The notes beneath the pieces were generated by a model. That model was not told the origin of the DNA. It saw only the letters and a list, made by a program, of their open reading frames with translations, and did no database searches. This document shows, piece by piece, positions 48,207 to 63,200 of a DNA stretch of 64,000 bases; within the stretch, counting starts at the first letter, position 1, and every line of letters begins with the position of its first letter. Source of the DNA: Nocardia goodfellowii. GTDB lineage: Bacteria; Actinomycetota; Actinomycetes; Mycobacteriales; Mycobacteriaceae. Where the stretch lies: the NCBI RefSeq assembly GCF_017875645.1, contig NZ_JAGGMR010000001.1, positions 5,704,001 through 5,768,000 on the forward strand. Direction: 5' to 3'. The position numbers were made by a program, and so were the translations under genes.

Positions 48207-48926
48207 TCACGGCTGCTGAGCGGATTCGGTTGTGCCTGCGCCGGATTCAGCGCGACGCAGCAGGTACTGATATCCGGCCGCCAGCTGGGCAGGGTTCCAG
48301 ACCTGTTCTTGTTTGAGCTTGGTTTCCACCTCGTGGGACCAGATGTTCGGTCCACCGGCCGCCTGTGCCAACAGTTGTGTGCGGCAGGCACGTTCGAGCA
48401 AGACCGCGTACATCACCGCGGTGGCGGGATCCGGTCCGACGGTGACCGCGCCGTGGTTGGGCAGCAGCACGGCGTTGGCCTCCCCCAATCGTTCGGCCAC
48501 GGCACGGCGGAGTTCCCGGTCCGCGATCAGCGCGCCGGTTCGGGTGAACCGGGGCAGCTGCGGATAGGTGAACGGCACGGCGTCGTGGGAGATGGCGCGC
48601 AGTTCACAGTCGAGGGAGGCGAACGCGCTCAGCGCTGGTGCGTGGGTATGCACGACGCTGGTCACCTCAGGGCGCAGCGCCATGATCTCGGTATGGATCG
48701 GAAATTCGAGATGGCGCCGGCCGTGACCTTCGACCACGGTCCCGTCCGCGCCGACCAGGACGACCTTTGTGTGGTCGATTTCCTCGAATCCCCACCCCGA
48801 GGCCTTCATCCAGACCCCACGACCGTCGGTGTCGCGTACCGACGCGTGCCCCCAGACCATGTCGCCCAGGCCCGCCGCGGCCAGCGCCCGGCTCGCCTGG
48901 ACGACCGAAACCTGTTCCGGGCGCAT
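48207..48926 (-). CDS. Class II aldolase/adducin-family protein
   Basis: 239 residues from the ATG at 48926 (a GTG one codon earlier is also possible). Family marks: GDMVWGHASVRD (about 20), LEFPIHTEIMALRPEVTSVVHTHAPALSAF (about 73-102) with the zinc-type His pair VHTH, and PNHGAVTVG (about 155) with the third His. Class II aldolases cleave or decarboxylate hydroxy-carbonyl compounds with a metal. Last of eight genes in the left operon, overlapping the preceding stop by one base. It probably acts on an aliphatic product made after ring cleavage. Confidence 0.82.
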   Translation of the reverse strand: MRPEQVSVVQASRALAAAGLGDMVWGHASVRDTDGRGVWMKASGWGFEEIDHTKVVLVGADGTVVEGHGRRHLEFPIHTEIMALRPEVTSVVHTHAPALSAFASLDCELRAISHDAVPFTYPQLPRFTRTGALIADRELRRAVAERLGEANAVLLPNHGAVTVGPDPATAVMYAVLLERACRTQLLAQAAGGPNIWSHEVETKLKQEQVWNPAQLAAGYQYLLRRAESGAGTTESAQQP

Positions 48927-49594
48927 CACTCTGGGCCGCCGGCGCGCACGGTGTACGGCGTGGCGTGGTCCAGGACGAGGACTTCGGTGGGTTCTGGTGC
49001 GAGCTTGCGCAACAGCCCGTAGTGCATTTGCTGGTGGGCGTGGGCGAGTCCGGCTTGATGAATCGGTATGGCGAGCCGCGGTGCCGTGGCACGCAGGTAG
49101 TCGATCGCCTCACCGATCTTCATCCACGGACCTCCCGCCGGTATCAACACGGTGTCGGCTGTGCTGGGCGGTAGATCGAAGGAGTCGCCGGGGTGGAAGA
49201 CCGTGTCGGCGATGAGGTAGCCGTTGTTCTCCGAACCGGGCAGATCGGGATGGATGCACGCGTGCTCTCCCCCGGTGACGACGATCCGGATGCCTCGCAC
49301 GCTCACGGTGGTACCGGGCTCGACCACCCGGCCCGAGATCGCGCGCTCCGCCAGCGCTACCGCAGCGGCCGGGCCGTGCAGCAGTTGCGCGTTCGGATTG
49401 TGTTCGACCAGGGCGGTGACGCCGTCGACGTCGAGGTGGTCGGGGTGAGCGTGGGTGATCAGGATGGCGTCGAGGTCGCGCAGCCCGGCATAGTCGGTGG
49501 AGTAGCTACCTGGATCGATCAGGATCCGGGCGGGCCGATCCCGCGACGGGAGCTCAAGCAGCACGCACGCGTGCCCGTAGTGGGTGATGATCAT
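48926..49594 (-). CDS. UlaG-like MBL-fold hydrolase
   Basis: 222 residues. Short metallo-hydrolase of the lactonase_2/UlaG group: THYGHACVLLE at the start, THAHPDHLDVDG (about residues 47-58) with His48, His50, Asp52 and His53, GGEHACIHP and HPGDSF. Relatives open lactone rings (L-ascorbate-6-phosphate lactonase). In this operon it could hydrolyse a lactone formed during ring breakdown. The ATG follows AGGAAGGACG; the stop overlaps the aldolase start. Confidence 0.83.
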   Translation of the reverse strand: MIITHYGHACVLLELPSRDRPARILIDPGSYSTDYAGLRDLDAILITHAHPDHLDVDGVTALVEHNPNAQLLHGPAAAVALAERAISGRVVEPGTTVSVRGIRIVVTGGEHACIHPDLPGSENNGYLIADTVFHPGDSFDLPPSTADTVLIPAGGPWMKIGEAIDYLRATAPRLAIPIHQAGLAHAHQQMHYGLLRKLAPEPTEVLVLDHATPYTVRAGGPE

Positions 49595-49632
49595 GTCAGC
49601 GTCCTTCCTGGAACAACTTGTGGCTCAGCCGG

Positions 49633-50733
49633 TTACGGGTTGACCACGGTCATCCACATCGGTTCGTCGCGGCGCTGCATCGCGTCGATGGCTCGCACCA
49701 CGTCGGCGAGCGCGAAGCGCTGGGTGATCAGTTCCTCGACGTGCAGGGCGCCCTCGCCGAGCAGGGCGAGAACCTCGTGGGCGTCGTTGCGGGTGCAGGA
49801 GCGGGTGCCGACGTAGCGCCAGCAGTTGATCATCATCGCGGCGGGCGGGAACGGCAGCGGGGTCCGGTTGGCACCCATGTGCACCAGCGTTCCGCCGGTC
49901 GCCAACCCGGCCATGGCCTGGCCGGTCGCGGGGCCGTCGGGGATGAAATCGATCACCGCATCGGCTCCGCCGGGGGCCAGTTCGCGCAGTCGTGCGGTGA
50001 GCCCGTCGGTCCCCGCCCACTCGCTGTCGAGGTCGTCGATGGCGACGGTGTCGGTGGCCACCTCACCTGCCAGCGCCCGGACCGCTTCGAGCCGTTCGGC
50101 GTCGCGTCCGACCAGGATGAGCCGCGAGATCCCGTACTGCTCAGCGAGTTTGATCGTGGCGGTACCCATGGTGCCCGTGGCGGCGGTGACGATCACCGTG
50201 GCCCCGAGCGGCAGGTCGGCGCATTTGAGGGCACGCACGGCATTGGCGAGATCGTGGACCTTGGCGGCCACATCGAAGCCCACGTTGTCGGGCAACTTGT
50301 CGATGAGCCAGTGTGGAACCCGGATGTATTCGGCCAACGCGCCATCGTGGTAGCGGTCGTAGAGCGGCATCGGCGCCCTGCTGAAGGCTGCGTGCCCGAT
50401 CATGGCCTGCTGGGCGCACATCATGTCGCGGTCGGTGCGACAGTACGCGCAGTCGCGGCAGTTGAGGTTCGGGTGAACTCGAACCCGTTGCCCCACAGTC
50501 ATTCCCGATACTTCGGAGCCGAGGGCAGCGATCGTGCCGGCGGCCTCATGCCCCACAGTCGTGGGCAGATGTTTGAAGGCACCACTTGCCAGCAACCGCA
50601 TCATCCCGGGCGCGAGTCCCGCCGAGGCGATCTCGACGACGACGTCGAGCGGCCCCGGGACGGGTACCGGGATCTTCTCCAGCACAACAGAATCCGAGCC
50701 GCGGTGGGCACGGGCAGCGAGCATGACGGTCAT
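49633..50733 (-). CDS. Zinc-type medium-chain dehydrogenase
   Basis: 366 residues. Groes-like domain with GHEAAGTIAALG (about 60-71) and structural-zinc cysteines in CRDCAYCRTDRDMMC (about 93-107). The NAD(P)-binding motif is TAATGTMGTATIKLA (about 178-192), an unusual form of the GxGxxG turn. The usual catalytic Cys near residue 40 is replaced by Gly/Met (AGLAPGMMRLL), so classical zinc catalysis is doubtful and a quinone-oxidoreductase-like mechanism is possible. Its ATG overlaps the cupin gene stop as ATGA. Probably it oxidises or reduces a pathway intermediate. Confidence 0.8.
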   Translation of the reverse strand: MTVMLAARAHRGSDSVVLEKIPVPVPGPLDVVVEIASAGLAPGMMRLLASGAFKHLPTTVGHEAAGTIAALGSEVSGMTVGQRVRVHPNLNCRDCAYCRTDRDMMCAQQAMIGHAAFSRAPMPLYDRYHDGALAEYIRVPHWLIDKLPDNVGFDVAAKVHDLANAVRALKCADLPLGATVIVTAATGTMGTATIKLAEQYGISRLILVGRDAERLEAVRALAGEVATDTVAIDDLDSEWAGTDGLTARLRELAPGGADAVIDFIPDGPATGQAMAGLATGGTLVHMGANRTPLPFPPAAMMINCWRYVGTRSCTRNDAHEVLALLGEGALHVEELITQRFALADVVRAIDAMQRRDEPMWMTVVNP

Positions 50734-51725
50734 CGGCCGGCCTTTGCGCGGGCGGCGGCGAGCCGCTCGGGTGACCAGGGATCAGCGGTTCGGGTGGTGT
50801 CGGCGACCTGGGGCAACTCCCGATGCGACAGCAGGGTGATGTACTCCCCCGGTTCGTCGTTCACACTGGCGTAGGCCACGCCCAGCGGAATCTGGACGAA
50901 ATCACCGGGTGCGAGATCGACGATGCCGCGCTGGGAGATCAGCGTGCGGGATCCGCTGACCTGGTAGTGGACGGTGTCGCCGTCGAGCAGCCGCCGGTAG
51001 CGCACGCCCTGGTTCCCGGCGGCGTCGTGGTGGACGCCGAGCCGGAATCGGTCGGTGCCATACAGCCAAGTGGTCGCGTGGTCGGAGGTGCCGCGCAGTA
51101 CCTGGATACGTTCCTTCTCGTGGTGCACCTGGTCGAGCAGCAGTTGCTCATCGATGGGAAATACCGCGATGTCGTGGCCGCGGGCTCCCATGCACTGGGT
51201 GACCGCTTCGTTGACCGCACCGGCCCGCCAACCGTCGAACGGCGGTGAAAGCGGCTGGGATTCACCCACACTCGGGCCGACCTCGGCGACCGGTGCGGGA
51301 ATGTAGAACAGCAGATGGCTTTCCTTGCGGCCGTAGTTGTCGTGTGCCACTCCCCGCGGAATGCGAGAGAACTCGCCTGGCCGATGTTCGATGACACCCA
51401 GTTCGGTCATCAGCGTGCGCTCACCGGCGATCTGATACGAGATTTCGTCGACGTCGCAGTTGCGGTGGTAGAACGGCTGCCGATTGTCCATCGTCTGCCA
51501 CTCGACCCGGATGTGCTCACTTTCGTAGACTCCGCGCGGCGGCGCGAACGGCTGGGCGCGGAACTGCTGGGGGAAATGCACCACGTTCAGCGGCGGCTGG
51601 TCACGCCACAGCTTGATCGGCGCCTTGCTGGGGTGTGGTGACGCGAGCAGTTGCTCCTCGTCGCGTTCGATGCTGCGCAACGGGCTGTCGGTTCCCATGA
51701 CCACGACGTCCTCGATGACTTTCAT
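50730..51725 (-). CDS. Two-domain cupin, homogentisate-dioxygenase-like
   Basis: 331 residues from the ATG at 51725, after GGAGG. Two cupin domains: about residues 80-150 (YHRNCDVDEISYQIAGERTL, PGEFSRIPRGVAHDNYG) and 215-310 (LGVHHDAAGNQGVRYRRLLDGDTVHYQVSGSRTL, PGDFVQIPLGVAYASV). The pattern resembles the homogentisate 1,2-dioxygenase superfamily but is shorter than the roughly 440-residue HmgA, and the classical HxxxxxE set is only partly present. A ring-cleaving dioxygenase or an isomerase-like cupin are both possible. Fifth gene of the left operon. Confidence 0.65.
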   Translation of the reverse strand: MKVIEDVVVMGTDSPLRSIERDEEQLLASPHPSKAPIKLWRDQPPLNVVHFPQQFRAQPFAPPRGVYESEHIRVEWQTMDNRQPFYHRNCDVDEISYQIAGERTLMTELGVIEHRPGEFSRIPRGVAHDNYGRKESHLLFYIPAPVAEVGPSVGESQPLSPPFDGWRAGAVNEAVTQCMGARGHDIAVFPIDEQLLLDQVHHEKERIQVLRGTSDHATTWLYGTDRFRLGVHHDAAGNQGVRYRRLLDGDTVHYQVSGSRTLISQRGIVDLAPGDFVQIPLGVAYASVNDEPGEYITLLSHRELPQVADTTRTADPWSPERLAAARAKAGR

Positions 51726-51752
51726 GGCCACCTCCTTCTCTGGTGAATGCGG

Positions 51753-52715
51753 TCAGGCTGTGGGCAGCGCACTGTAGTAGCGCTGCGCCCCGGGATGGAG
51801 CGGGATCGGAGCGCGGCCCATGGTGACCGGGTCCAGTGGATAGGTGATCGGGCTGCGATCAGGCGGGATGTGCCGGTACTGCTGCTCGATGATGTGGCGG
51901 GTCTCGCCCAGAATCCACGCGATCGCGTAGGCGATGTCTTCGGCCAGTTCGGTGGTGGTGAGCACGAGGAAGTCGGAGAAGTCCAGGGTGCGAAATGCGC
52001 TGCGGCCGGGGAAGTAGTGGTCGGCGACGGTCGCAGCGGGCCACCCGAAATCGGTGTCGAGCTGCTCCAGCACCTCGGATTCGACTTCCAGGAAGTGGAA
52101 GTCGCCGCCGAACTGCTGCCAGTGCGGCAGCATGACCGCTTCATGAACGATCGCGGTGGCGCGCCCGGCCAGCACATGATCGAACGATTCGAACGGGCGC
52201 TCGTCTTCGAGGAATCGCCCACCCCATCGGAGGACGTCGATCCCGGCGCGTTCGAGCAGCGCGTGCGCGGCCAGCCCGACGTGGTTGATCCCGTCATTGA
52301 TCGATGTCGCCAGTGTGAGTGCGGGTTCGGCCGCGCGCAGCTCAGCGAACGTGGTCACCCCCAGCGCTCGGTGCACCGCCATCACCAGCCGGTCTCGCTG
52401 CGGCACTACGCCCAGTGCCCGCAGGTGCGGGAACGACTCGTCCTGGTAGACGCCACGACCGTCGAGTGCGGCGACCGCGAACGCGGCCGGAGTGGTCAGG
52501 GCGAGATCGACCTCACCGCGTCCGACGGCACGGACCGCATCGGCGAAGCCGCGGCTGTTCCAGATCGCGACGCGGGTGTCCGGGCCGGCGCGATCGGTGA
52601 GTTCTTGGGAGATCCAGCCGCAGACGCGGTGCAGGTTGGCCGTTCCCCAGTCACCGCGCAGGTGCAGGGTGAGGGAGCGGGCGATGGCCGGTGCTTCCGG
52701 CCTGGGGGCGTTCAT
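51753..52715 (-). CDS. TAXI/NMT1-type binding-fold protein without a signal peptide
   Basis: 320 residues from the ATG at 52715, whose ATGA overlaps the FAH stop. The fold is that of TRAP-transporter TAXI solute receptors: LTLHLRGDWGTANLHRVCGWISQELTDR, GEVDLALTTPAAFAVAALDGRG, and a C-terminal half ending ITYPLDPVTMGRAPIPLHPGAQRYYSAL. The N-terminus is polar (MNAPRPEAPAIAR), with no signal peptide or lipobox, so it should stay in the cytoplasm. No TRAP membrane gene is present. Some binding-fold proteins have become cytoplasmic enzymes, for example 4,5-dihydroxyphthalate decarboxylase. A decarboxylase or ligand-sensor role here is an inference from that precedent and the operon. Confidence 0.65.
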   Translation of the reverse strand: MNAPRPEAPAIARSLTLHLRGDWGTANLHRVCGWISQELTDRAGPDTRVAIWNSRGFADAVRAVGRGEVDLALTTPAAFAVAALDGRGVYQDESFPHLRALGVVPQRDRLVMAVHRALGVTTFAELRAAEPALTLATSINDGINHVGLAAHALLERAGIDVLRWGGRFLEDERPFESFDHVLAGRATAIVHEAVMLPHWQQFGGDFHFLEVESEVLEQLDTDFGWPAATVADHYFPGRSAFRTLDFSDFLVLTTTELAEDIAYAIAWILGETRHIIEQQYRHIPPDRSPITYPLDPVTMGRAPIPLHPGAQRYYSALPTA

Positions 52716-53545
52716 GCGCGACTCTCGGTGGTACGGACGGTGTTTCGGATGGCGCCGACTCCGTCGATTTCGACGCTGATGGTGTCGCCGTCGGTGAGGA
52801 ACACTTGGGGGTCGCGGCGGTAGCCGACCCCGCCCGGCGTGCCGGTGAGGATGAGGTCGCCGGGCGCCAGTGCGGTGAACGTGGAAATGGTCGCGATCAG
52901 ACGCGGAATGGAGAAGATCAGCATCGACAGGTCCGACTCCTGGACTTTCGCACCGTTGAGCACCGTCCGGATACCGGCTTCGGCGAGGTCGACGGTGTCG
53001 GGCGGGACGAGGTAGGGGCCGACCGGGGTGGAGGCGTCCCAGGCTTTGCCCTGCATCCACTGGTGTGTCTTGTACTGGTAGTCGCGCATCGTGACATCGT
53101 TAGCCACGCTATAGCCAAGGACGTGGTCGAGGGCATCTTCCTCGGGAATCCGGCGTCCCGACCGGCCGATGACCACCACGAGTTCGCCTTCGTAGTCGAC
53201 TTGCGCCGACTCCGGGGGCAGGACGATATCGTCGAAGCCACCCAGCAGACTGTCGGCGAATTTGGGGAACAGCACCGGGTATGTGGGCAGTTCACGGCGG
53301 GATTCGGTGACATGTTCGCGGTAGTTGAGGCCGACGCAGAACACTTTGCCGGGACGCGGGACGACGGGCAGAATCCGCGCCTCGGTGACCGATACCGCCG
53401 CCGTGGTATCGCGGACAGCCGCACGGAGCAGTTCCGGGGTGGTGCCGGCGCCGAGTTCGGTCATCCCGGCCAGCGGAACCAACGATGATCCGCGCAGTTC
53501 GCCGACGTGTCGCCGGCCGTCGTGTTCATAGGTCGCGTAGGTCAT
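52712..53545 (-). CDS. Fumarylacetoacetate hydrolase-family protein (left module)
   Basis: 277 residues from the ATG at 53545, which overlaps the preceding stop as ATGA. FAH core: VFCVGLNYREHVTES (about 70-83), PKFADSLLG, the metal-binding E-x-E in VDYEGELVVVIGRSGR (about 117-132), Asp in NDVTMRDYQ (about 152), GPYLVP and the terminal FTGTP-equivalent ILTGTPGGVGYRR. Family members hydrolyse C-C bonds of acylpyruvates or ring-cleavage products, or isomerise and decarboxylate them. It lies directly after the dioxygenase gene, which fits hydrolysis of the cleaved ring. Confidence 0.85.
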   Translation of the reverse strand: MTYATYEHDGRRHVGELRGSSLVPLAGMTELGAGTTPELLRAAVRDTTAAVSVTEARILPVVPRPGKVFCVGLNYREHVTESRRELPTYPVLFPKFADSLLGGFDDIVLPPESAQVDYEGELVVVIGRSGRRIPEEDALDHVLGYSVANDVTMRDYQYKTHQWMQGKAWDASTPVGPYLVPPDTVDLAEAGIRTVLNGAKVQESDLSMLIFSIPRLIATISTFTALAPGDLILTGTPGGVGYRRDPQVFLTDGDTISVEIDGVGAIRNTVRTTESRA

Positions 53546-54477
53546 CGGTTCATTCCTTCGCTGGTCTTGCGCCAACCGGCGAGCTGGCCGCCCCACAAAT
53601 TCACGGTGTGCGGTACCGGTTTCCATCGGCGGGGCACGTAGGTGGCGCGGTCGTCGTGGAATTGCTCCATCTCCGCCGACAGTTCGATGTGGTTGCCGGC
53701 GGGGTCGTCGAAGAAGACGAACAGGTTGTTGCCCGGGCCGTGCCGGCCGGGCCCCCAGGTGACATCGACGTTGTCGTCGGTGAGCCGGTCACACCACGCC
53801 TTGAAGTCCTCCCATCGCGACAGGTCGTAGGAGTAGTGGTCGATATCGCCGCCCCGCTCGATGTCGACCACCGCCAGCGTGTGGTGGTCGCGGTCGCTGC
53901 GCAGCCACGCGAATCTGCCGTCGTCCAATTGGTCGGAGATCCGGAACCCGACCTGGTCGACGAAGAAGGCGACCATGGCCTCGACGTTGTCGGTACCGAG
54001 TGTGATGTGCTGATATTTGATCGGCCGTCGTCCGGTGTCGGCGGTGGATTCGCCGTGCCGCCGCACCGTGGTGTGGAAATGGATCGGGGTGCCGTGCGGG
54101 TCGGCGACCGCGATGCCGTGCGGAGTGCCGACGGCGGCGTCGAGATAGTCCGCGTCGAGGGATTCGACGCTGTGCCCGGCGGCAGTCAGGCGGGTGGCCA
54201 GAGCCGCTACCCCGCCGAGGTCCCGGACTTCGAATCCATAGTGGCGCAGCGCCTTCGGTCCTTCGACCAGTTCGATGACATGGTGTCCGCTGCCCCAGCC
54301 CAGTCGCACTCTGCCGTCGGAGCGTTCCTCCTGGAGCACAAGTCCCAGGACACGACTGTAGAACTGGACGGTTGCGGCGAGATCGGGAACGGAGAACCCG
54401 ATGTGCGAGACCGCGGTGCGGGTCAATGTTCCTGCGGCGTCGTGCTCTTCGAGGACGACACGTTGCGGCTTATCCAT
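53542..54477 (-). CDS. Extradiol ring-cleavage dioxygenase, VOC type (left module)
   Basis: 311 residues, two VOC domains. The first (about 22-135) is structural. The second has the full iron triad: His157 in IKYQHITLG, His214 in DIDHYSYDL and Glu265 in NHIELSAEM, matching the His-His-Glu of BphC-type enzymes. A conserved His/Tyr pair near the iron is also seen (Tyr216). It should cleave a catechol-type ring next to the hydroxyls. Its start overlaps the stop of the hydroxylase gene by 8 bases and its end overlaps the FAH gene by 4, so the three are coupled. Confidence 0.87.
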   Translation of the reverse strand: MDKPQRVVLEEHDAAGTLTRTAVSHIGFSVPDLAATVQFYSRVLGLVLQEERSDGRVRLGWGSGHHVIELVEGPKALRHYGFEVRDLGGVAALATRLTAAGHSVESLDADYLDAAVGTPHGIAVADPHGTPIHFHTTVRRHGESTADTGRRPIKYQHITLGTDNVEAMVAFFVDQVGFRISDQLDDGRFAWLRSDRDHHTLAVVDIERGGDIDHYSYDLSRWEDFKAWCDRLTDDNVDVTWGPGRHGPGNNLFVFFDDPAGNHIELSAEMEQFHDDRATYVPRRWKPVPHTVNLWGGQLAGWRKTSEGMNR

Positions 54478-56098
54478 GGGTCAGGGCCCTTTCTGGAGAG
54501 GTGATCGACGCGGTTCCGGCAGGGGTCCAGGAGCGGACCCGCTCGACCAGGTCGGCGGAAGCGCGGGGTGGCCAGGCGGCGGCCACGACACGATCGGGAC
54601 GGATCAGGGCGAAACGCCCTGTGTAGGGGGCGAATTCACGCAGCAGGCCGCCGTCGACGTCCAGCACGACCCGGTGATCGGTGCGCGGCATGTGCTCGGT
54701 GGTCGAGACCTGGATCGAGACAGCGTCGAGTTGTTCGAGCACCGCGGCGACGGCTGTCCAGTCGGTCCGCCCGACGTCGATCCCCAGCAGCGCCCAGCCG
54801 TTGCCCAGCACACTGTCGAGCCGACGCAGACGGTGGGTAACGGTGTCGAAGACCAGCGGCTGTCCGATCGGGATCCCGACCAGTTCGGGCCGGTCTCCGG
54901 CGGAAAGCAGCCCACTGTCGTATCGGGCGGACGGGCGGTAGCGCATCTCCTCGAGGAACGCGCGCCCTTGCCCGGTGGCGAGGGCGCGTTCGATGTGCTG
55001 ATCGCGGCGGCGAGCGAACCGCGGTGAAGTCGTCATCACCACACGCCCGAGCCGTTCCGAGAGCCGGACGGTGGCCAGCGCGTGCGGATATCGTTCCCGC
55101 TGATATGTGTCCAAAATCGACGGGTCCAGCCGTCCGGCGAGCACATCGGCGATCTTCCAGGCCAGGTTGGACGCGTCACGCAGGCCGGAGTTCAGCCCCT
55201 GGCCGGCGAATGGCGGCATCATGTGCGCCGCGTCGCCGAGCAGAAACGATCGCCCGATCATCCATCGGTCGGCGACCACGGCATTGAACCGATAGTTGAT
55301 CGCGCGTTCGATCTGGCGCGGGCTGATCCGCCGGTACGGCGCCACCAACCGCTCGATCAAGGCGAAATCAGGTTTCTGGTCCGGGGTTCCCTCGCCGTCG
55401 AAGAGCCGGAATTCGTAGCGGCAGCGACCGTTCAGACCCGGCACGATCACATGCGGGCGGACGGGGTCGCCGTGATGCATCGCGAAGCGTTGCGTGTGCG
55501 GATCCTCGAGGGTGTCGACCACCAGCCAGACATCCGGATAACTGCGGCCGGTCATATCGATGTTCTGCAACAACCGGGTCGCCGAACGGCCACCGTCGCA
55601 GCCCAGCACGTACCGCGCGCGAACCACCGATCGACCGGTGGCCGTTACCGCGTGGACAGACACATGCTCGGGATGCTGGTCGAATCCGACGACGCGAGCG
55701 CCGAAACGCATTTCGACATTGCCGGTCTCAGCCAGCGCTTCCGCGAGTACGCGTTCGAGATCCGGTTGCGCGAAGGGGTTCTTGAACGGATATCCCAGCC
55801 GGAACGGGCGCGGTCCCCGGGCGTGGAACAACTCCTCACCGTGCCGGTCGTAGTAGCGCGTTCCGGTGCCCGGTACCACCACCGGCATAACCCGGTCCAC
55901 AATGCCCGCGGCCTGGTAGACGCGCAGCGACTCATCGTCGATGCTGATGGCTTTGGGTTCGTCGCTGGTACCGGAATTCTGTTCCAGTACAACGACATCG
56001 ACGCCTCGCGCCGCGAGCAACGCGGCCGCCGTCAGGCCGACCGGCCCAGCGCCACACACCACGACATCGGCTGTGCTTGTCGGCATCTTCGCCGCCAT
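54470..56098 (-). CDS. FAD-dependent aromatic hydroxylase (left module)
   Basis: 542 residues from the ATG at 56098, after AGGTGGGCC. MhpA-type class A flavin monooxygenase: VVVCGAGPVGLTAAALLAARG (about 11-31), IDDESLRVYQAAG, LGCDGGRSATR (about 166) and LLGDAAHMMPPFAGQGLNSGLRDASNLAWK (about 290-320). The C-terminal part has the thioredoxin-like extension of MhpA/PheA relatives. It is the first gene of the eight-gene left operon, so its product probably starts the pathway by hydroxylating the ring. The composite IclR site lies 53-90 bases upstream. Confidence 0.86.
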   Translation of the reverse strand: MAAKMPTSTADVVVCGAGPVGLTAAALLAARGVDVVVLEQNSGTSDEPKAISIDDESLRVYQAAGIVDRVMPVVVPGTGTRYYDRHGEELFHARGPRPFRLGYPFKNPFAQPDLERVLAEALAETGNVEMRFGARVVGFDQHPEHVSVHAVTATGRSVVRARYVLGCDGGRSATRLLQNIDMTGRSYPDVWLVVDTLEDPHTQRFAMHHGDPVRPHVIVPGLNGRCRYEFRLFDGEGTPDQKPDFALIERLVAPYRRISPRQIERAINYRFNAVVADRWMIGRSFLLGDAAHMMPPFAGQGLNSGLRDASNLAWKIADVLAGRLDPSILDTYQRERYPHALATVRLSERLGRVVMTTSPRFARRRDQHIERALATGQGRAFLEEMRYRPSARYDSGLLSAGDRPELVGIPIGQPLVFDTVTHRLRRLDSVLGNGWALLGIDVGRTDWTAVAAVLEQLDAVSIQVSTTEHMPRTDHRVVLDVDGGLLREFAPYTGRFALIRPDRVVAAAWPPRASADLVERVRSWTPAGTASITSPERALTHG

Positions 56099-56150: not shown

Positions 56151-56188
56151 GTCCTGTATTTCGAAAGCAACGTCCTGATTTACAGGAC
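56151..56188. promoter_or_regulatory. Composite IclR operator, left promoter
   Basis: A full palindrome GTCCTG-ATTTA-CAGGAC (56172-56188) plus an extra half-site GTCCTG at 56151-56156, exactly 21 bases further out on the hydroxylase side. The region separates the left operon from the IclR gene. The same palindrome and 21-base half-site spacing, in mirror image, occur at 57080-57117. Confidence 0.85.
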
Positions 56189-56196
56189 ATGGAGTG

Positions 56197-57003
56197 ATGG
56201 ATATCGTGAGCCGCATGGCAACCAACGCGGACCCACCCCGTACCTATCGCGAACGCAATTCCACCGCGGACCGCGCCCTGGACATCTTGCTGCTGTTCAG
56301 CGCCGACAAACCGGTCTGGTCAGGCATAGAGATATCGGCCCGCTTGGGCGTCGCGCGTTCGACCACCTATCGCTACCTGCAGAGTCTGACCGGGTCGGGA
56401 TTCATCGAGGAAGCGGCCGGTGGGTTCCGGCTCGGGCCGCGGATCTTCCAGCTGGCCCGGCTGGCCCGTGCCGGCCTGGGCCTGTCCGATGTCGCGCTGC
56501 CCGCCATGCGGGCGCTCGCGGCACAGGTGAACGAGACCGTCCTGCTGACCCGGCGGTCGGGTCGCTCGGTGGTGTGCCTGGATCTGGTCGAGGCACAGCA
56601 CGCCGTGCGCCTGTCCTACGAACGCGGGCACGTGTTGCCGATCAACGCCGGCGCGGCCGCAGAAGTGCTGCTCGCGTGGGCCGATCCGGACGAGGTCACC
56701 GCGATCCTCGAACAGGGACCGCTGGAACGCTTCACCGCGAAAACTCTGACCGACCCCGAAGCGCTGCGTACCCGCTTGGCGCACATCAGGAAACGCGGTG
56801 CCGCGTTATCGCAGGGAGAATTGGACGACCACATCCTCGGTGTCGCCGCGCCGATTCGCGACGCATCCGGTGCGGTATGCGCGGCGATCAGTATCGCCGC
56901 CCTCGCGTCCCGAGTTCCGCGCTCGGAACTGAAGACCGTCGAAGCGCAAGTCAAAGCCGCAGCCGCCACGGTGTCGCGGCAACTCGAACTGCGAGACGCC
57001 TGA
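56197..57003 (+). CDS. IclR-family regulator of the catabolic locus
   Basis: About 268 residues. Starts at 56194 (GTG), 56197 (ATG), 56206 (GTG) and 56215 (ATG) are in frame; I choose 56197 because an AGGAC sequence lies at suitable distance, but this overlaps the operator. Winged helix-turn-helix at about residues 25-85 (ALDILLLFSADKPVWSGIEISARLGVARSTTYRYLQSLTGSGFI). The IclR effector domain follows (YERGHVLPINAGAAAEVLLAW, SQGELDDHILGVAAPI, CAAISIAALASRV). It stands between the two divergent catabolic operons, and both promoters carry the same composite site, so it most likely controls both and itself. Confidence 0.88.
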   Translation: MDIVSRMATNADPPRTYRERNSTADRALDILLLFSADKPVWSGIEISARLGVARSTTYRYLQSLTGSGFIEEAAGGFRLGPRIFQLARLARAGLGLSDVALPAMRALAAQVNETVLLTRRSGRSVVCLDLVEAQHAVRLSYERGHVLPINAGAAAEVLLAWADPDEVTAILEQGPLERFTAKTLTDPEALRTRLAHIRKRGAALSQGELDDHILGVAAPIRDASGAVCAAISIAALASRVPRSELKTVEAQVKAAAATVSRQLELRDA

Positions 57004-57079
57004 ACTCGATCCCGCGCGGCGATCCGGGTTCGGCACGGTCTGCATCGATCGCCCCGAAAAGGCTGATCAACCGTTTCAG

Positions 57080-57117
57080 GTCCTGTTATACAGGACAGCA
57101 CTGTTGCGATCCAGGAC
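57080..57117. promoter_or_regulatory. Composite IclR operator, right promoter
   Basis: A perfect palindrome GTCCTG-TTATA-CAGGAC (57080-57096) plus a half-site CAGGAC at 57112-57117, exactly 21 bases beyond the same half of the palindrome. It lies 57-94 bases before the FAH start of the right operon. It mirrors the left composite site. Confidence 0.85.
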
Positions 57118-57173
57118 ACGTTCCTACCATCGCTGTGATCCAGAACTCAGCAGTCACAGAGGGTAGGTTTCAG

Positions 57174-58055
57174 ATGCGGATCGCAAATTCCGACAACCGG
57201 GCGACTATGGTCCTCGGCCCACCGGGCGATGAACGCCTGCTCGATATCGCGACCGCTTCCTCCGGGCGATTCGGTCCGGAATTGCCCGCGCTCTATCAGG
57301 ATTGGGCCGCGTTCACCGCCTGGGCGGCCGAACACGGATCTGATATCGACAGCGCCGCCACCACGGCCCTCGACCGGACCGCGCTCGGCGCCCCCTCCCC
57401 CATGCCGCGCCAGGTTTTCGCCGTCGGCCTGAACTACCGGGCCCACGCCGGCGAATCCGGTTTCGAAGCACCCACCGGGCTCCCGCCGGTATTCACCAAA
57501 TACGTCTCGAGTTTCACCGGTCCGGATACCGAGGTGACACTGCCCGACGGCGGAAACGTCGACTGGGAGATCGAACTCGTGGTCGTCATCGGACAGACCG
57601 GCCACCAGATCGACATCGCCAGCGCCTGGACATACGTCGCCGGATTGACCGCAGGGCAGGATATTTCCGAACGCGTCTCCCAGTTACGCGGGCCCGCACC
57701 ACAATTCGGACTCGGGAAGTCATTTCCAGGATTCTCCCCGCAGGGCCCGTGGCTGGTGACACCGGAGGAGTTCGACAACCCCGACGATCTCGAGCTGGGA
57801 TGCGGTCTCGACGGTGAAGAGCTACAGAAAGGCCGCACCGGCGAGCTCATCTTCAGCGTGCCCGCCTTGATCGCCGCGCTGTCGCGCACGGTGACCCTCT
57901 ACCCCGGTGATGTCATCTTCACCGGCACACCCGCCGGAGTCGGCGTCGGGCGGGACCCGCAACGGTTCGTTCAGCCCGGACAGCGATTGGACAGCTGGAT
58001 CGAAGGCATCGGCGAACTGCACCAGCGGTTCCGGGCCGCGGCGGACAGGAAGTAG
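57174..58055 (+). CDS. Fumarylacetoacetate hydrolase-family protein (right module)
   Basis: 293 residues. FAH core: VFAVGLNYRAHAGESGF (about 81-97), metal E-x-E in VDWEIELVVVIGQTGH (about 128-142), the Asp in GQDISERV (about 165), and the terminal IFTGTPAGVGVGRDP. It is a diverged paralogue of the FAH gene at 52712 (similar motifs, different lid and spacing), so the right module has its own C-C hydrolase. First gene of the right operon, directly behind the IclR operator; the ribosome-binding site is weak. Confidence 0.85.
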   Translation: MRIANSDNRATMVLGPPGDERLLDIATASSGRFGPELPALYQDWAAFTAWAAEHGSDIDSAATTALDRTALGAPSPMPRQVFAVGLNYRAHAGESGFEAPTGLPPVFTKYVSSFTGPDTEVTLPDGGNVDWEIELVVVIGQTGHQIDIASAWTYVAGLTAGQDISERVSQLRGPAPQFGLGKSFPGFSPQGPWLVTPEEFDNPDDLELGCGLDGEELQKGRTGELIFSVPALIAALSRTVTLYPGDVIFTGTPAGVGVGRDPQRFVQPGQRLDSWIEGIGELHQRFRAAADRK

Positions 58056-58063
58056 GTCAGGTC

Positions 58064-58990
58064 ATGGCACTGCATGGACTCGCTTCGGTCGCGGTGGGCG
58101 TCCCGAACGTCACCGAAACCATCGCCTACTACACCGAATTCGGTCTCGAACACCGCGGCGAGGGGTTGTTCGCGACCCGCGATGGTGGCGAGCAACTGCG
58201 CATCGCTTACGCGCCGACCCGCCGCTTGCTCGAATTGGCCGTCGCCGCAGCGGATTCCGACGACATCGCCGCCATCGCGGCTCGGCTGGGCGCCCACGAC
58301 GTCGAACACCATCACACGGCCGATTCGGTACGCGCGATCGAGCCGGTCACCGGCACCCCGGTCGTCGTCACCGTTCGACCGCGAATCACCATCGATCCGC
58401 CCGTTCTCGCCACGCCTTACAACGGGCCCGACCGCATCGACCGATGGGGGCGCGCGCCGTTCATCGCTCGCACCGAGCCGGTACGCCCGCGAAAACTCGG
58501 CCATGTCGTCATCGGCAGCACAGACCTGGACACCACGCGCCGGTTCTTCACCGACGGACTCGGTTTCAAGATCAGCGACTACATGGGTGCCAAAGCCGCC
58601 TTTCTACGCTGCTCCGTCGAACACCACAACGTGCTGGTCATGGCGGCGCCGGTCAACTTCATGCACCACACCAGCTGGCAGGTCGACGACATCGACGACG
58701 TCGGTCGCGCAGCACACCGCATGCTCGAAGGCCACCCCGAACGCCACACCTGGGGATTGGGTCGACACTTCGCCGGCGCCAACTTCTTCTGGTACCTCAA
58801 AGATCCAGCAGGAAACTTCTCCGAGTACTACTCCGATATGGACACCATCCCCGAGGACGAGCTGTGGTCACCCCAGGTGCTCGAGGGACTGCAGGGTCTC
58901 TACGCGTGGGGACCGCCACCGCCACCGTCGTTCCTCGAACCGGACGACTTGGCCGCACTGATGACCGGTGCGCATTCCACCAACCGCTGA
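58064..58990 (+). CDS. Extradiol ring-cleavage dioxygenase, VOC type (right module)
   Basis: 308 residues, ATG after AGGAAGTAGG, 8 bases behind the FAH stop. Second VOC domain has the iron triad: His147 in KLGHVVIGS, His201 or His202 in FMHHTSWQV, and Glu254 in NFSEYYSDM. The active-site loop MHHTSWQVDDID resembles BphC/HsaC-type enzymes, whereas the left-module enzyme has DHYSYDL, so the two probably act on different catechols. It carries out cleavage of a diol ring in the same pathway logic as the left module. Confidence 0.86.
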   Translation: MALHGLASVAVGVPNVTETIAYYTEFGLEHRGEGLFATRDGGEQLRIAYAPTRRLLELAVAAADSDDIAAIAARLGAHDVEHHHTADSVRAIEPVTGTPVVVTVRPRITIDPPVLATPYNGPDRIDRWGRAPFIARTEPVRPRKLGHVVIGSTDLDTTRRFFTDGLGFKISDYMGAKAAFLRCSVEHHNVLVMAAPVNFMHHTSWQVDDIDDVGRAAHRMLEGHPERHTWGLGRHFAGANFFWYLKDPAGNFSEYYSDMDTIPEDELWSPQVLEGLQGLYAWGPPPPPSFLEPDDLAALMTGAHSTNR

Positions 58991-59050
58991 ACAAGTGAAC
59001 AAGTTTCCGGGGCGGTCCGGTCCCGGGAAACTCCCGCGCCAGGAGCACCG

Positions 59051-60586
59051 ATGAACAACACGATCAACCACGTCCCCGTCCTGGTCGCCGGAGGCGGTCC
59101 CGTGGGACTGGCAACCGCTCTGGAACTCTCGCACCACGGGGTCGCCGTGCTGGTGGTCGAGCCGCGGGAAACCGTCTCGCCCTTGCGTCCACGCGCGAAA
59201 ACGACCTCCGCGCGAACGATGGAACTGTTTCGCAGGTGGGGTCTGTCCGACCGCATCCGTGCCCGGGCGGCGCTACCGGTCAGCTGGTCGGATGAAGCGA
59301 TCTTCACCACCAGCCTGCTGGGACGCGAAATCACCCGCTTCTCAGGCTGTTTCGGTCTGGACCTCACCGGTGCCGACATCGCCGCTGAAGCCGGCCAGCA
59401 GATACCACAACCTGTCATCGAAGAGGTTCTGCGCGAAGCCGTCGACTCCGCACCACATGCGACACTGCTGACCGGATGGACCGTGACCGGCCTGTCGCAG
59501 ACCACCGACCAGGTCACCGCGCGGATCGAACACAGCGACGGCACCACCCGATCCGTGTGCGCCGACTTCGTGGTCGGCGCGGACGGCGCCTGGAGTGCGG
59601 TGCGCGACAGCATCGGCGCACGCTATGCAGGCAGTGCCGACGAGCGGCCCAACTTCAACATCGTCTTCCGGGCCCCGGGACTCGCCGACAAGGTGCCGCA
59701 CGGCCCCGCCGTGCACTACTGGGTGCTGCATCCCCGCCGGCCCGGTGTGCTCGGCCGACTCGATCTCGAGGACATGTGGTGGTGCATCGCGCAAGGCGTC
59801 ACCGAGGAGCACGGCGCCGCGGACACCCTGGGCATCGTGCGCGAACTGGTGGGTGCCGATATCGAGGCCGACATTGTCGCGACCGACCCCTGGAAAGCCA
59901 AACTCCTGCTGGCAGATCACTACCGGGCGGGCCGAGTCTTCCTCGCCGGTGACGCCGCGCACCTGAATCCGCCGTGGGGAGGCCACGGATTCAACACCGG
60001 AATCGGTGACGCGGTGAACCTGGGCTGGAAGCTCGCCGCGGTAGTCAACGGCTGGGCCCCGGCCGGGTTGCTGGACAGCTACGAGGCCGAACGCAAACCG
60101 ATTGCCGCGCATACCATCGCCGCGGCGGCCCGCAACATGGCGACTCTCGCACCCGAACTCAGCGACGAACGTCTACTCGGCCCACCCGCGCAGTTCGACG
60201 CGGCCCGCCCCGCGGTCGCCCAAGCCGTCCAGCAGGCCAAAGACAGCGAATTCCACAGCCTCGATCTGGTACTGGGCTACACCTACCAGAACTCACCGGT
60301 GGTATCGGACCGAGCCGGAGCTCGCCTCACCCACCGCTGGCTCGCCCCCGGCGATTCCCTCTATGACCACCTCGGCCCCGAGTTCACCCTGCTCGGCGAC
60401 CTGGCGGATCCCCTGGTCGCCGAATTCGCGGACGCCGCACGCGCGCAGGACGTGCCGCTGACCCTCTTCGACGACCCCACCTGTGCCCTGGTTCTGGTGC
60501 GGCCCGACCAGCACCTGGCCTGGACCGCCGAAGACCCCGGCAGCCCAGCCGAGATCCTCCGGCGCGCGATCGGACACGACAACTGA
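59051..60586 (+). CDS. FAD-dependent aromatic hydroxylase (right module)
   Basis: 511 residues, ATG after CCAGGAGC. Class A flavin monooxygenase: LVAGGGPVGLATALELSHHG (about 11-30), RARTTSARTMELFRRWGL-type segment, FVVGADGAWSAVRDSIG (about 174-190) and FLAGDAAHLNPPWGGHGFNTGIGDAVNLGWKL (about 297-328). The PPWGG.G form of the GD motif is usual in PgaE/RdmE-like and TcmG-like hydroxylases. It is the third flavin hydroxylase of the locus. It probably hydroxylates the substrate for the dioxygenase encoded just upstream. Confidence 0.86.
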   Translation: MNNTINHVPVLVAGGGPVGLATALELSHHGVAVLVVEPRETVSPLRPRAKTTSARTMELFRRWGLSDRIRARAALPVSWSDEAIFTTSLLGREITRFSGCFGLDLTGADIAAEAGQQIPQPVIEEVLREAVDSAPHATLLTGWTVTGLSQTTDQVTARIEHSDGTTRSVCADFVVGADGAWSAVRDSIGARYAGSADERPNFNIVFRAPGLADKVPHGPAVHYWVLHPRRPGVLGRLDLEDMWWCIAQGVTEEHGAADTLGIVRELVGADIEADIVATDPWKAKLLLADHYRAGRVFLAGDAAHLNPPWGGHGFNTGIGDAVNLGWKLAAVVNGWAPAGLLDSYEAERKPIAAHTIAAAARNMATLAPELSDERLLGPPAQFDAARPAVAQAVQQAKDSEFHSLDLVLGYTYQNSPVVSDRAGARLTHRWLAPGDSLYDHLGPEFTLLGDLADPLVAEFADAARAQDVPLTLFDDPTCALVLVRPDQHLAWTAEDPGSPAEILRRAIGHDN

Positions 60587-60647
60587 CGACAGACCAGCCG
60601 TACCTGCTCGGTGCTGCCGGACCCACGCCACGTCAAAGGAGACGACC

Positions 60648-61919
60648 ATGGCAATCACCACGACATCCACGACACCAGCGAAGAAGCACCGGGCCGGGAT
60701 TCTCCTGCTCGGGTGTCTGGTCCTGTTCGTCGACGGCTACGACCTGTTCACCCTGGGCACGATCGGCCCCAGTCTGCTCCACGACCGCTCCTGGGGCGCA
60801 TCGGTCACCACGCTGGGCACCCTCGGTAGCCTGACGGCTCTGGGTATGCCGCTGGGCTCGATCCTGGCCGGCTGGGCCGCTGACCGCTGGAGCCGCAGAA
60901 CACCGCTGATCGTTGCCGTGTGCTGGATCTCGGCATCGATGCTGGCCGCGGCGGCCGCACGAGATCTCACCCAACTCGGCGCGGCACGAATCGGCACCGG
61001 AATCGGGGTCGGTGCGCTCGCGCCGTTGGTCGCCGCGCTGGTCTCCGACCATGCCCCTCGCAACCGCCGGACCCTGCATCTGGCCATCGCCATGGGCTCC
61101 ATCGGAATCGGCGGCACCGCCTCAGCCCTGCTCGGGCGAGTCCTCCTGTCCGAGGTGCACTTCCAGACCCTGTTTCTCATCGGCGCGTTCCCGGTGGTCC
61201 TGGTGCCGCTGATCCTCTGGATCGTCCCCTCGACCACTGCCCACCCCGGTACCACCGAGAAGGTCCGCTACGTCGCCGAACTGTTCACGCCCGCAACACG
61301 TCTCGCTACAGTCCTGTTCTGGATCGCGGCCTTCGCCAGCATGACCCTGGTGTACAGCACCACGGCCTGGCTGCCGACGGTCATGATGCGCAACGGATAC
61401 AGCCTCAACTCCTCGCTCGAATTCATGATCGCCTTCACCGCGGGGGCCGCCTGCGGCGGAGTGCTGATGGCGATCGTGGCCGACCGTGGTTATCTGAAAC
61501 TCGTTACCGCCGTGACCTTTTCCCTCGCCGCCGTGGCTCTGCTGGTGCTGAGCACCAATCAGCCACGCCCCCTGCTGCTGGCGATCTCGGCCCTGGCCGG
61601 ACTCGGATCCCTGGGCTGCCAGAACCTCATCATCGCCTACATCAGCGCCTACTACCCGCCCCGGCTCCGCGCCACCGCACTGGGATTGGGCCTGGGCGTC
61701 GGCCGCCTCGGCGCCATCGCCGGCCCGTCCTACCTCTCCGCCGCCACCACGTTCTTCACCTCACCCCGGGCCGGCTTCTTCGCCTTCATGGCCCCCGCCC
61801 TGCTCGGCGCCATCACCGTCGCGCTGCTTCCCGCGCCCGACACCGACAGCGGCCCGGACACCACGGCACCGCAGCCGCTGGAAGCCGGTGACAGACTTTC
61901 TCGCGAAGGAACCCGGTAG
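60648..61919 (+). CDS. MFS aromatic-acid:H+ symporter (AAHS-like)
   Basis: 423 residues, ATG after AAAGGAGACG. Twelve helices. LFVDGYDLFTLGTIGPSLL in helix 1 carries the D-x-x-D/E-type acidic residue of the AAHS family (PcaK, BenK), followed by GSILAGWAADRWSRRTPLIVAV (motif A). It should import an aromatic acid with protons. As the last gene of the right operon it supplies the substrate for the enzymes made from the same transcript. The regulated importer suggests the natural inducer is an external aromatic acid. Confidence 0.83.
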   Translation: MAITTTSTTPAKKHRAGILLLGCLVLFVDGYDLFTLGTIGPSLLHDRSWGASVTTLGTLGSLTALGMPLGSILAGWAADRWSRRTPLIVAVCWISASMLAAAAARDLTQLGAARIGTGIGVGALAPLVAALVSDHAPRNRRTLHLAIAMGSIGIGGTASALLGRVLLSEVHFQTLFLIGAFPVVLVPLILWIVPSTTAHPGTTEKVRYVAELFTPATRLATVLFWIAAFASMTLVYSTTAWLPTVMMRNGYSLNSSLEFMIAFTAGAACGGVLMAIVADRGYLKLVTAVTFSLAAVALLVLSTNQPRPLLLAISALAGLGSLGCQNLIIAYISAYYPPRLRATALGLGLGVGRLGAIAGPSYLSAATTFFTSPRAGFFAFMAPALLGAITVALLPAPDTDSGPDTTAPQPLEAGDRLSREGTR

Positions 61920-61931
61920 CCCGCCGCCGCA

Positions 61932-63200
61932 TCATCCCGCCAAGGTGTCGAGACATTGCGAACCGCGAGTCCGTGCGGCGGCGCGGCCGCGATGTGACCG
62001 GATCAGCAGCGCCGCCCGCAAATGGCACAAACCCGTGAGGTCCGTCGGGTCGAAGCCGGTGATCTCCGCGATCCGTTTCAGTCGGTAGTCGACGGTGTTG
62101 GCGTGCACATGCAACCTGCGAGCAGTCCGGTTGCGCTGCATATTCGTCGCCATATGCACTTCGAGGGTCAGTAGCAGATCCGGATGGGCTTCCAGCGAGT
62201 CGAGCACCGAACTCAGATAGTCGCGGGCCGGGCCCGGCCGAGTCAGCTGGTACTCGAACGCCAACTCATTCGGGCGATATACCCGGCTTTCGCCGCCGAG
62301 GCGATGAACGATATCGACGAGCTCGTGGACCTGCTCGGCCACCTTCGGGATGTCCGCGGGCACGGCGGCCATGGCCACCGCCCGGACCGGCACCTGGGCC
62401 GCGGCCGACAGCTGAACGATCAGTTCGTCCAGATCCGAATCGGAGAACCGCGGAGCGGGCAGCAGCAGCGTGCCCCCATCGACGCTCAACAGCGACAACA
62501 CTTTTCCGCCGCACCGGTTGGCCAGCTCCGCCTGGACTCGCCGAAGCTTGCGCCGGGCCACCACATTCGCATCCAGCCTGGAATCGAACTCGTCCGGATG
62601 TCGTGGAAGTTCCAGCCCCACAACGTGATACTGGTCGGCTACCTCGATGCCGCATTCCCGCGCCATCGTCGACGTGCTCTGGCCGCCCAGTAGCGCCGAG
62701 GTCAGCGTGTGCACGGCGGTGTGATGCTCACTGATCACCGAACGCAATTCGCGCACATAGGCGACCGATACCGCCGAGGTGATCATGTTCAGGGCCTCCA
62801 TCAACCGCAGCGCGACCCCCGCGATGGTTGCGTGGTCCCGGGTGGTGCCATGGGCCAGAATGAGGTCGAAGCCGAGTTTGAATCCTTCGTGGATGGCGTG
62901 GTGGATCGTATCGATCGGGATTCCCTCGCGCGCCCATCCGGCGGCCGCTGCCTGCACTCGTTCGGTGCGGCCGGGCAGATCCTGTCCGTCGAGCATGCTC
63001 CTGGTCAATTCCAGACACACTCGCGTTATGGTCGTTACATCACCGTGCAGTGCTTCGCCGGGCAAGGTCGCGCACGGCACGACGTTCTCGATGAAATGGC
63101 CGACCATTTGGCGAGAAAGAGTCCGCACATCCTTCAACGGGCTGGACACCGGCCGGCCCGAGGAGGTCAGGAACGGTTCGGAGGAGGTTGCGACAGACAT
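61932..63200 (-). CDS. PucR/CdaR-type transcriptional regulator
   Basis: 422 residues from the ATG at 63200, after AGGAAAGGAA; a longer in-frame start is unlikely. The C-terminal PucR helix-turn-helix spans about residues 352-410 (LLTLEVHMATNMQRNRTARRLHVHANTVDYRLKRIAEITGFDPTDL). The middle has a GGDEF-like/CdaR fold, and the N-terminal half is a helical sensor domain (SEHHTAVHTLTSALLGG). These proteins often activate catabolic genes in response to a substrate. It is convergent with the right operon, 12 bases apart, and may add a second control layer to the locus. Confidence 0.83.
   Translation of the reverse strand: MSVATSSEPFLTSSGRPVSSPLKDVRTLSRQMVGHFIENVVPCATLPGEALHGDVTTITRVCLELTRSMLDGQDLPGRTERVQAAAAGWAREGIPIDTIHHAIHEGFKLGFDLILAHGTTRDHATIAGVALRLMEALNMITSAVSVAYVRELRSVISEHHTAVHTLTSALLGGQSTSTMARECGIEVADQYHVVGLELPRHPDEFDSRLDANVVARRKLRRVQAELANRCGGKVLSLLSVDGGTLLLPAPRFSDSDLDELIVQLSAAAQVPVRAVAMAAVPADIPKVAEQVHELVDIVHRLGGESRVYRPNELAFEYQLTRPGPARDYLSSVLDSLEAHPDLLLTLEVHMATNMQRNRTARRLHVHANTVDYRLKRIAEITGFDPTDLTGLCHLRAALLIRSHRGRAAARTRGSQCLDTLAG

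Follow-up and report, generated by a model that had tools for sequence, protein, structure and literature searches.

What would an actinobacterium do with two sets of ring-hydroxylating, ring-opening and carbon–carbon-bond-hydrolysing enzymes placed on the two sides of a single regulator gene? This question is raised by a locus in the window analysed here, a 64,000-nucleotide stretch (bases 5,704,001–5,768,000) of the main contig of a 7.98-Mb Nocardia genome. At 48,207–61,919, open frames and family matches delineated thirteen genes, arranged in two transcription units around one IclR-family regulator gene (Table 1). As the original prediction had it, each unit carries an arm composed of a flavin hydroxylase (Hyd_L on the left, Hyd_R on the right), a VOC-family extradiol dioxygenase (VOC_L and VOC_R) and an FAH-family hydrolase (FAH_L and FAH_R), all present as open frames with family matches; the five further genes announced for the left unit, encoding a TAXI-fold protein, a bicupin, a zinc-type dehydrogenase (ADH), an MBL-fold protein and a class II aldolase-like protein (Ald2), and the MFS importer on the right were found as well. 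The cluster is real and conserved, and its enzymes belong to known families. With a probability of about 0.45, we read it as a catabolic regulon in which two ring-opening arms would serve related substrates and converge on one shared lower pathway. If true, this would give a defined and testable regulon for phenolic breakdown by actinobacteria with separable upper arms, one hydrolase position that either of two unrelated folds can take, and an intracellular function for a binding-protein fold. As to whether the arrangement already belongs to a known pathway, no such description was found in searches of an open-access library, which lacks most subscription papers, and the cluster is apparently undescribed so far.

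In transcription order, the left unit consists of Hyd_L, VOC_L, FAH_L, the TAXI-fold protein, the bicupin, ADH, the MBL-fold protein and Ald2, and because the spacing between them is only −8 to +38 bp, these eight genes very likely form one operon. The right unit consists of IclR and, after a 170-bp gap, FAH_R, VOC_R, Hyd_R and MFS, separated by 8, 60 and 61 bp (start codons were our choice among alternatives). The locus had been described as a mirror image, and this held for the strands but not for the gene order, which runs outward as Hyd–VOC–FAH on the left and as FAH–VOC–Hyd on the right, and the IclR gene shares its strand with the right operon. The range 48,207–63,200 first assigned to the locus was also only partly retained, as its right end takes in a PucR-type gene with no evident link to the cluster, and a third hydroxylase gene (Hyd3), just outside the left end, may belong.

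By sequence, the governance of both arms by a single IclR, as proposed before, is well supported, because a palindrome unique to the two promoters recurs in related loci. The perfect palindrome GTCCTG-N5-CAGGAC, with identical half-sites, is present in both promoter regions as two putative operators and occurs in exactly two copies in the 7.98-Mb genome, both at the cluster promoters, and a backward-read control pattern gave 0 copies in the same genome. In 81 related loci (1.62 Mb; the 79 cupin loci described below plus L111 and L117), 25 copies were counted, compared with 0, 0, 0, 1, 0, 1 and 0 for seven other palindromes; these are counts of exact palindromes, and the relaxed form TCCTG-N5-CAGGA gave 51 matches. 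When the loci were sorted by IclR identity, the site was present in 8 of 10 at ≥70%, 8 of 27 at 50–70% and 2 of 44 below, the last two (L049 and L052) having the site before Hyd_L and no IclR found in the stretch. With two mismatches allowed, the window held only the two exact sites against a shuffle mean of 3.93, that is, no enrichment within the window alone, so the weight of the palindrome comes from its position, genome-wide uniqueness and conservation. We infer that IclR, which scored 139.7 bits with the PcaR/PobR-like subfamily model (cut-off 284.75), binds the palindrome. Further copies were observed near ABM-type monooxygenase, P450 and Zn-ADH genes in three related loci (L034 701–2705, L044 1256–3536 and L036 985–4558), and the IclR regulon seems to be larger in these species.

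The arm enzymes look functional, with catalytic residues intact. The His-His-Glu triads reported by the original prediction are kept in both dioxygenases and their aligned relatives: H157/H214/E265 of VOC_L in 17/17, and H147/H202/E254 of VOC_R in 19, save one gap at H147. Alignment to solved structures thus gave both proteins the 2-His-1-Glu site of type I extradiol dioxygenases in the metal-binding domain. Different active-site loops had also been predicted, and at the position aligned with the second-sphere tyrosine of BphC (1HAN), which we take to be Tyr250, all 19 VOC_R sequences have Tyr (Tyr244 here) and all 17 VOC_L sequences have Phe (Phe255 here). FAH_L residues H78, E81, E119, E121, D150 and K167 are kept in at least 39 of the 40 top-scoring relatives (out of 56), gaps accounting for the rest, and H91, E94, E132, E134, D163 and K182 of FAH_R in 18/18 relatives; both subfamilies therefore conserve the H-x2-E dyad, ExE, D and K of the acylpyruvase type, for which we assume the functional roles of the FAHD1 residues. 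Solved relatives of FAH_L include HpaG/HpcE, the FAHD1 acylpyruvase and L-2,4-diketo-3-deoxyrhamnonate hydrolase. The usual FAD motifs are present in all three hydroxylases (GxGxxG, GCDGG and GD in Hyd_L); Hyd_L and Hyd3 passed the MhpA-type subfamily model (cut-off 390), with four MhpA equivalog models listed below cut-off, and the nearest solved structure to Hyd_R was RebC, followed by 2,4-dichlorophenol and 2-hydroxybiphenyl hydroxylases. Over aligned stretches, the left and right arms are just 29–37% identical (VOC 31%, FAH 37%, hydroxylases 29%), and a recent duplication of one arm was rejected for this reason.

The conservation of the cluster was evaluated with a cupin profile search of genome contigs, in which the best 80 of 81 matches gave 79 loci from 70 genomes, mostly actinobacteria but also Pigmentiphaga, Ramlibacter, Sphingomonas, a Burkholderiales bin and a Chloroflexota bin. 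Nine genomes contributed two loci each, L089 and L099 overlap, and genes cut by the stretch edge were counted as present (e.g., VOC_R in L084 and L108). Cupin plus ADH was defined as the core, and Hyd_L plus FAH_L plus either VOC_L or a one-domain VOC as the left arm, the one-domain VOC being assumed to act as its dioxygenase; VOC_R alone stands for the right arm. Of the 81 cupin copies in the 79 loci, 68 have the ADH gene directly 3′ of them. Large parts of the gene set were also found in Streptomyces, Actinomadura, Amycolatopsis, Phaeobacter, Ramlibacter and Sphingomonas, where the records name the cupins "hypothetical", homogentisate 1,2-dioxygenase or quercetin-dioxygenase-like, and the TAXI proteins transporter subunits.

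The fold of the bicupin, whose nearest named relative is from Nocardia sp. XZ_19_385 (87%), was closest to homogentisate 1,2-dioxygenase (HGD) by VIA-align, at 10–12% identity in the structural alignment; in Foldseek, 3-hydroxyanthranilate dioxygenase and quercetinases ranked as high, with TM-scores ≤0.5 throughout the list, and families missing from these fold lists were not counted as excluded. By sequence model it is not an HGD, as it had no NCBIfam match and solely a Pfam Cupin_2 match of 20.6 bits, under the cut-off of 27.2. It also has 333 residues, against about 420 for HGD, and its metal motif lies in the N-terminal barrel, unlike that of HGD, which lies in the C-terminal barrel. Ald2 weakly matched the 3,4-dihydroxyphthalate decarboxylase PhtC (71.4 bits, cut-off 200), and the PDB relatives of the MBL-fold protein are uncharacterised metal hydrolases. 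The TAXI-fold protein has the TAXI fold, and a plasmid search with it gave matches from Phaeobacter only. In 21 of 23 aligned TAXI proteins, 6–19 residues precede the invariant R13 (35 in L099 and 77 in L109 as called), the first 40 residues of all of them have low hydrophobicity on a simple scale, which is not a signal-peptide program, and no TRAP permease family was found among the cluster genes scanned. Without signal peptide and permease, the protein is probably a cytosolic enzyme or sensor.

Several loci without an MBL-fold gene carry a dienelactone hydrolase (Pfam DLH). When profiles for both were applied to the 79 loci, 16 had MBL, 30 had DLH, none had both and 33 had neither; one or the other was present in 41/41 armed core loci vs. 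4/28 unarmed ones (39/39 vs. 3/24 by genome), figures that are descriptive because the profile seeding overlaps the loci and the loci are related. Two unrelated folds in one slot suggest a shared reaction, most simply lactone hydrolysis, and since every armed core locus has MBL or DLH, never both, a lactone step in the pathway is likely.

In the pathway that we propose, IclR would sit on both operators until an effector, either the substrate or a common intermediate, releases it. In each arm, the flavin hydroxylase would convert a phenolic ring to a catechol-type diol, the VOC dioxygenase would then open the diol ring in the extradiol manner, and the FAH enzyme would hydrolyse the resulting 2,4-dioxo acid of the acylpyruvate type, so that an MhpC-type hydrolase would not be needed. 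The remainder would be a lactone or pyrone, or would close to one, and would be opened by the MBL-fold hydrolase (DLH in other clusters), after which the HGD-like cupin, the ADH, the presumably cytosolic TAXI-fold protein and the class II aldolase/decarboxylase would complete the breakdown; the two arms would take related substrates and meet at this common lower pathway. By chemical reasoning, the combination of hydroxylase, extradiol dioxygenase and FAH enzyme fits meta-dihydroxy rings, the extradiol products of which are 2,4-dioxo acids. Our guess for the substrate is a resorcinol-type ring in a fused-ring plant phenolic of the chromone, flavonoid, coumarin or isocoumarin type, and we would give a fused-ring phenolic about one chance in three; the gentisate, LigB and ABM/P450/Zn-ADH neighbours are weak substrate hints. 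More doubtful is the wider idea that cupin, ADH, cytosolic TAXI-fold protein, lactonase and class II aldolase make up a cross-phylum lower pathway taking varied hydroxylase–dioxygenase–FAH arms, with a TAXI fold turned catabolic enzyme or sensor and an HGD-like cupin cleaving a pyrone or a second ring.

Whether the arms would act in parallel or in sequence, both of which the original prediction had allowed, was not decided by the comparison, although we lean to parallel use because each arm can stand next to its own full core gene set. In sequential use, a bicyclic or biaryl compound would have its first ring opened by one arm and the second ring, in what remains, by the other, which we consider rather unlikely, but a serious contender. 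Counted by locus (69/79 with core), 13 had both arms, 22 the left only, 6 VOC_R only and 28 neither (p = 0.11); counted by genome (63/70 with core), the numbers were 15, 21, 3 and 24 (p = 0.011). The left arm with core but without VOC_R, found in 21/63 core genomes and thus in 21 of the 39 armed ones, argues for parallel use. Right arms were also found next to their own core genes and apart from any left arm in L039, L095, L099, L102 and L105, with their own cupin and mostly also ADH, TAXI, aldolase and lactonase genes, even though in three of these cases a left arm with a second core set is present in the same genome (pairs L105/L086, L095/L060 and L099/L089). In at least three of seven two-armed Nocardia (L117, L118 and L119), a Hyd3-type hydroxylase replaces Hyd_R in the right arm while VOC_R and FAH_R stay, which also speaks against sequential use. 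The sequential scheme is favoured by the joint presence of both arms: among 150 genomes of the genus, 11 had a full-length or near-full-length cupin match, and 7 of them, counting the window genome, showed a complete left arm plus VOC_R in the stretch seen. The genome search for the gene set and its synteny, suggested with the original prediction, found the window layout with both arms, 82–95% identical, in the nearest relative (G108, L111), and two arms flanking one IclR in Sphingomonas (L109), so that the two-armed form also exists outside Nocardia. Moreover, both window arms seem to answer to one operator type. The association may, however, stem from shared ancestry, several of the genomes being Nocardia or Actinomadura.

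Several results weigh against two convergent arms on a shared lower pathway. The association of the arms by genome also fits sequential use, and the right arm without the left was found in just 3/18 genomes, one of them doubtful, since the cut end of the L035 stretch holds a left-arm FAH gene. The loci are mutually related and were truncated about 10 kb away from the cupin, and the seven seed proteins of the DLH profile came from six clusters, four of which are among the 79 loci. In L056, L064, L066, L070 and L101, the palindrome is not clear of the called IclR frame but sits at its 5′ edge. A third arm type, with a Hyd_R-like protein, FAH in 11/12 and in several cases a one-domain VOC, was present in 12 of the 28 unarmed loci with cupin and ADH, mainly Streptomyces; the profiles used detected neither MBL nor DLH in any of these 12, which means that a hydroxylase arm does not always come with the lactonase. 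In L092, L096, L097, L098 and L100 (Pigmentiphaga and the Burkholderiales bin), a ring-opening dioxygenase of the LigB type takes the place of a VOC arm next to the TAXI–cupin–ADH trio, so the core also serves further upper pathways. In addition, the likeness of the cluster to the ifc system discussed below lies in the logic of the route, and the window cupin is probably not the ifc cupin (IfcD), although a distant relative may have escaped the search.

A variant of the 3-(hydroxyphenyl)propionate (mhp/hpp) pathway with FAH in place of MhpC would share MhpA-type hydroxylases, extradiol cleavage and an MhpT-like importer with the cluster. Hyd_L and Hyd3 indeed passed the NCBIfam PRK06183.1-3 cut-off, and the MFS protein resembles MhpT, though below cut-off (178.7 bits vs. 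410; 212.7 vs. 418.55 for TIGR00895). However, the cluster has FAH and not MhpC, and no MhpC, MhpD, MhpE or MhpF family was found among the 15 scanned proteins of 46580–63200, which carry the cupin–ADH–TAXI–lactonase–aldolase set instead, bearing out the earlier view that the route after ring cleavage is non-standard. Hyd_R falls in another subfamily, a lactonase has no place in mhp, and the name MhpA says little, as in each of the four rhizobial modules viewed PGAP assigns it to the hydroxylase; we regard such a variant as improbable. That the cluster tailors or detoxifies a polyketide-like compound or an antibiotic, instead of supporting growth on it, appears scarcely more probable. Such a role would suit RebC as nearest structure of Hyd_R, with rifampin monooxygenase and RdmE matching below the dichlorophenol and hydroxybiphenyl hydroxylases, and also the palindromes near monooxygenase, cytochrome P450 and other Zn-ADH genes in L034, L036 and L044. 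Against it, two ring-opening dioxygenases, two C–C hydrolases, a further hydrolase and an aldolase make a degradative set, an importer-like MFS protein is attached, and no biosynthetic core genes were present among the genes scanned.

Compared with described systems, the combination of a flavin hydroxylase and a VOC dioxygenase in one cluster, typical of fde and ifc, is found here and in other aromatic clusters too; the fde regulator FdeR is LysR-type. In fde of Herbaspirillum seropedicae, the flavin 8-hydroxylase FdeE and the VOC dioxygenase FdeC are described as acting on the flavonoid A ring (PMC11069340, PMC11303751). The ifc system of Variovorax sp. V35 likewise has a group A flavin hydroxylase, a VOC extradiol dioxygenase and a cupin, and a pyranone arises from the ring-cleavage product: the 8-hydroxylase, the dioxygenase and a further step turn daidzein into a 2-hydroxy-4-pyranone, which the cupin consumes (PMC11069340), a precedent for the pyrone and the cupin step proposed here. 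In the same account, a knock-out of the alpha/beta hydrolase still degraded daidzein, and the enzyme for the step from X2 to X3 was not pinned down. It differs from the window in that the main text of PMC11069340 describes one hydroxylase–dioxygenase pair, in Proteobacteria, and does not contain the word "fumarylacetoacetate", nor are TAXI, a lactonase or a class II aldolase named in its available text. The cupin profile A1 had a full-length match in 1/399 Burkholderiaceae genomes when up to five candidates were scored in each. For the homoprotocatechuate (HPC) pathway, the curated cut-offs were missed: VOC_L reached 104.8 of the 321.4 bits of the HpaD-type cut-off, and FAH_L (160) and FAH_R (127.3) stayed below the 276.4 bits of the HpaG-type decarboxylase.

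Similar gene sets were found on plasmids. In rhizobial plasmids (Aminobacter, Rhizobium bangladeshense and Shinella), VOC, FAH, hydroxylase and IclR families are adjacent as here, the VOC proteins are 32.6–35.0% identical to VOC_L, and a TAXI protein and a dienelactone hydrolase are nearby in Aminobacter; these modules differ in having one arm, and no cupin of this family was found in the stretches viewed. We know of no described function for them. The plasmid pP11_c of Phaeobacter gallaeciensis shares the hydroxylase, FAH, VOC, IclR, an HGD-named cupin, ADH, two TAXI proteins and class II aldolases, but has dienelactone hydrolases for MBL, one VOC arm and gentisate-type genes attached. Gentisate genes also occur on the Shinella plasmids, and a gentisate-dioxygenase-like gene was near the core in 6/79 loci (five Streptomyces and one other actinobacterium), all without both arms.

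Table 1. Features of the locus, with positions in the window.
Feature	Position	Strand	Evidence or remark
Hyd3, third group A flavin hydroxylase, MhpA-type	46580..48142	+	NCBIfam PRK06183.1-3 601.3 bits, cut-off 390
Ald2, class II aldolase/decarboxylase-like	48207..48926	-	Pfam Aldolase_II 1.3e-41
MBL-fold (UlaG/UPF0173-like) metal hydrolase, proposed lactonase	48926..49594	-	Pfam Lactamase_B_3 1.8e-19; HxHxDH motif
Zinc-type medium-chain dehydrogenase (ADH)	49633..50733	-	Pfam ADH_N, ADH_zinc_N
Bicupin	50730..51731	-	H-x-N-x4-E plus H metal motif, N-terminal barrel
TAXI-type binding-protein fold	51753..52715	-	Without signal peptide
FAH_L, FAH-family C-C hydrolase	52712..53545	-	Pfam FAA_hydrolase 2.7e-69
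VOC_L, two-domain type I extradiol dioxygenase	53542..54477	-	Pfam Glyoxalase 6.6e-25; aligns to BphC 1HAN
Hyd_L, group A flavin hydroxylase	54470..56098	-	Pfam FAD_binding_3 4.8e-64; PRK06183.1-3 399.5 bits, cut-off 390
Proposed IclR operator 1, GTCCTGATTTACAGGAC	56172..56188		73 bp before Hyd_L, 8 bp before IclR
IclR-family regulator	56197..57003	+	Pfam HTH_IclR, IclR_C
Proposed IclR operator 2, GTCCTGTTATACAGGAC	57080..57096		77 bp before FAH_R
FAH_R, FAH-family C-C hydrolase	57174..58055	+	Pfam FAA_hydrolase 3.5e-59
VOC_R, type I extradiol dioxygenase	58064..58990	+	C-terminal domain aligns to 3b59, 1HAN
Hyd_R, group A flavin hydroxylase	59051..60586	+	NCBIfam PRK06126 521.6 bits, cut-off 445
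MFS importer, aromatic acid:H+ symporter-like	60648..61919	+	Pfam MFS_1
PucR-type regulator	61932..63200	-	Pfam HTH_30 3.4e-18; nothing ties it to the cluster

At the right border, ARAGORN called a tRNA-Ser (gga) at 62568–62650 (-), within the PucR-type frame 61932–63200 and on the same strand; either the call is false, which is probable, or the gene model is wrong. At the left border, the Hyd3 gene is convergent with the left operon, 64 bp apart, and follows a TetR gene (45683–46432) and, in divergent orientation, an alpha/beta hydrolase gene (44761–45744) that reaches no curated cut-off. No copy of the palindrome precedes Hyd3; other Nocardia have Hyd3-type hydroxylases in their right arm, in L084 this type is adjacent to Hyd_R, and Hyd3 is possibly part of the cluster system.

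Among the related loci, Streptomyces with the third arm type include L051, L053, L055, L057, L058, L063 and L069, and in L054 a gene with a Pfam HalD (Halogenase D) match (16288–17184) adjoins the FAH gene of a Streptomyces cluster. In L038 of Actinokineospora, a 168-base stretch (4456–4623, -) 71% identical to the MFS importer adjoins IclR and may be a vestige of a right arm that was lost. Nocardia tenerifensis has two cupin copies (L035 and L085), with duplicated and inverted MBL–aldolase–TAXI genes in L035. Elsewhere in the window's own genome, a further VOC–FAH–hydroxylase set without the palindrome was found (L140, 6016–11595; C1:3396000–3412000).

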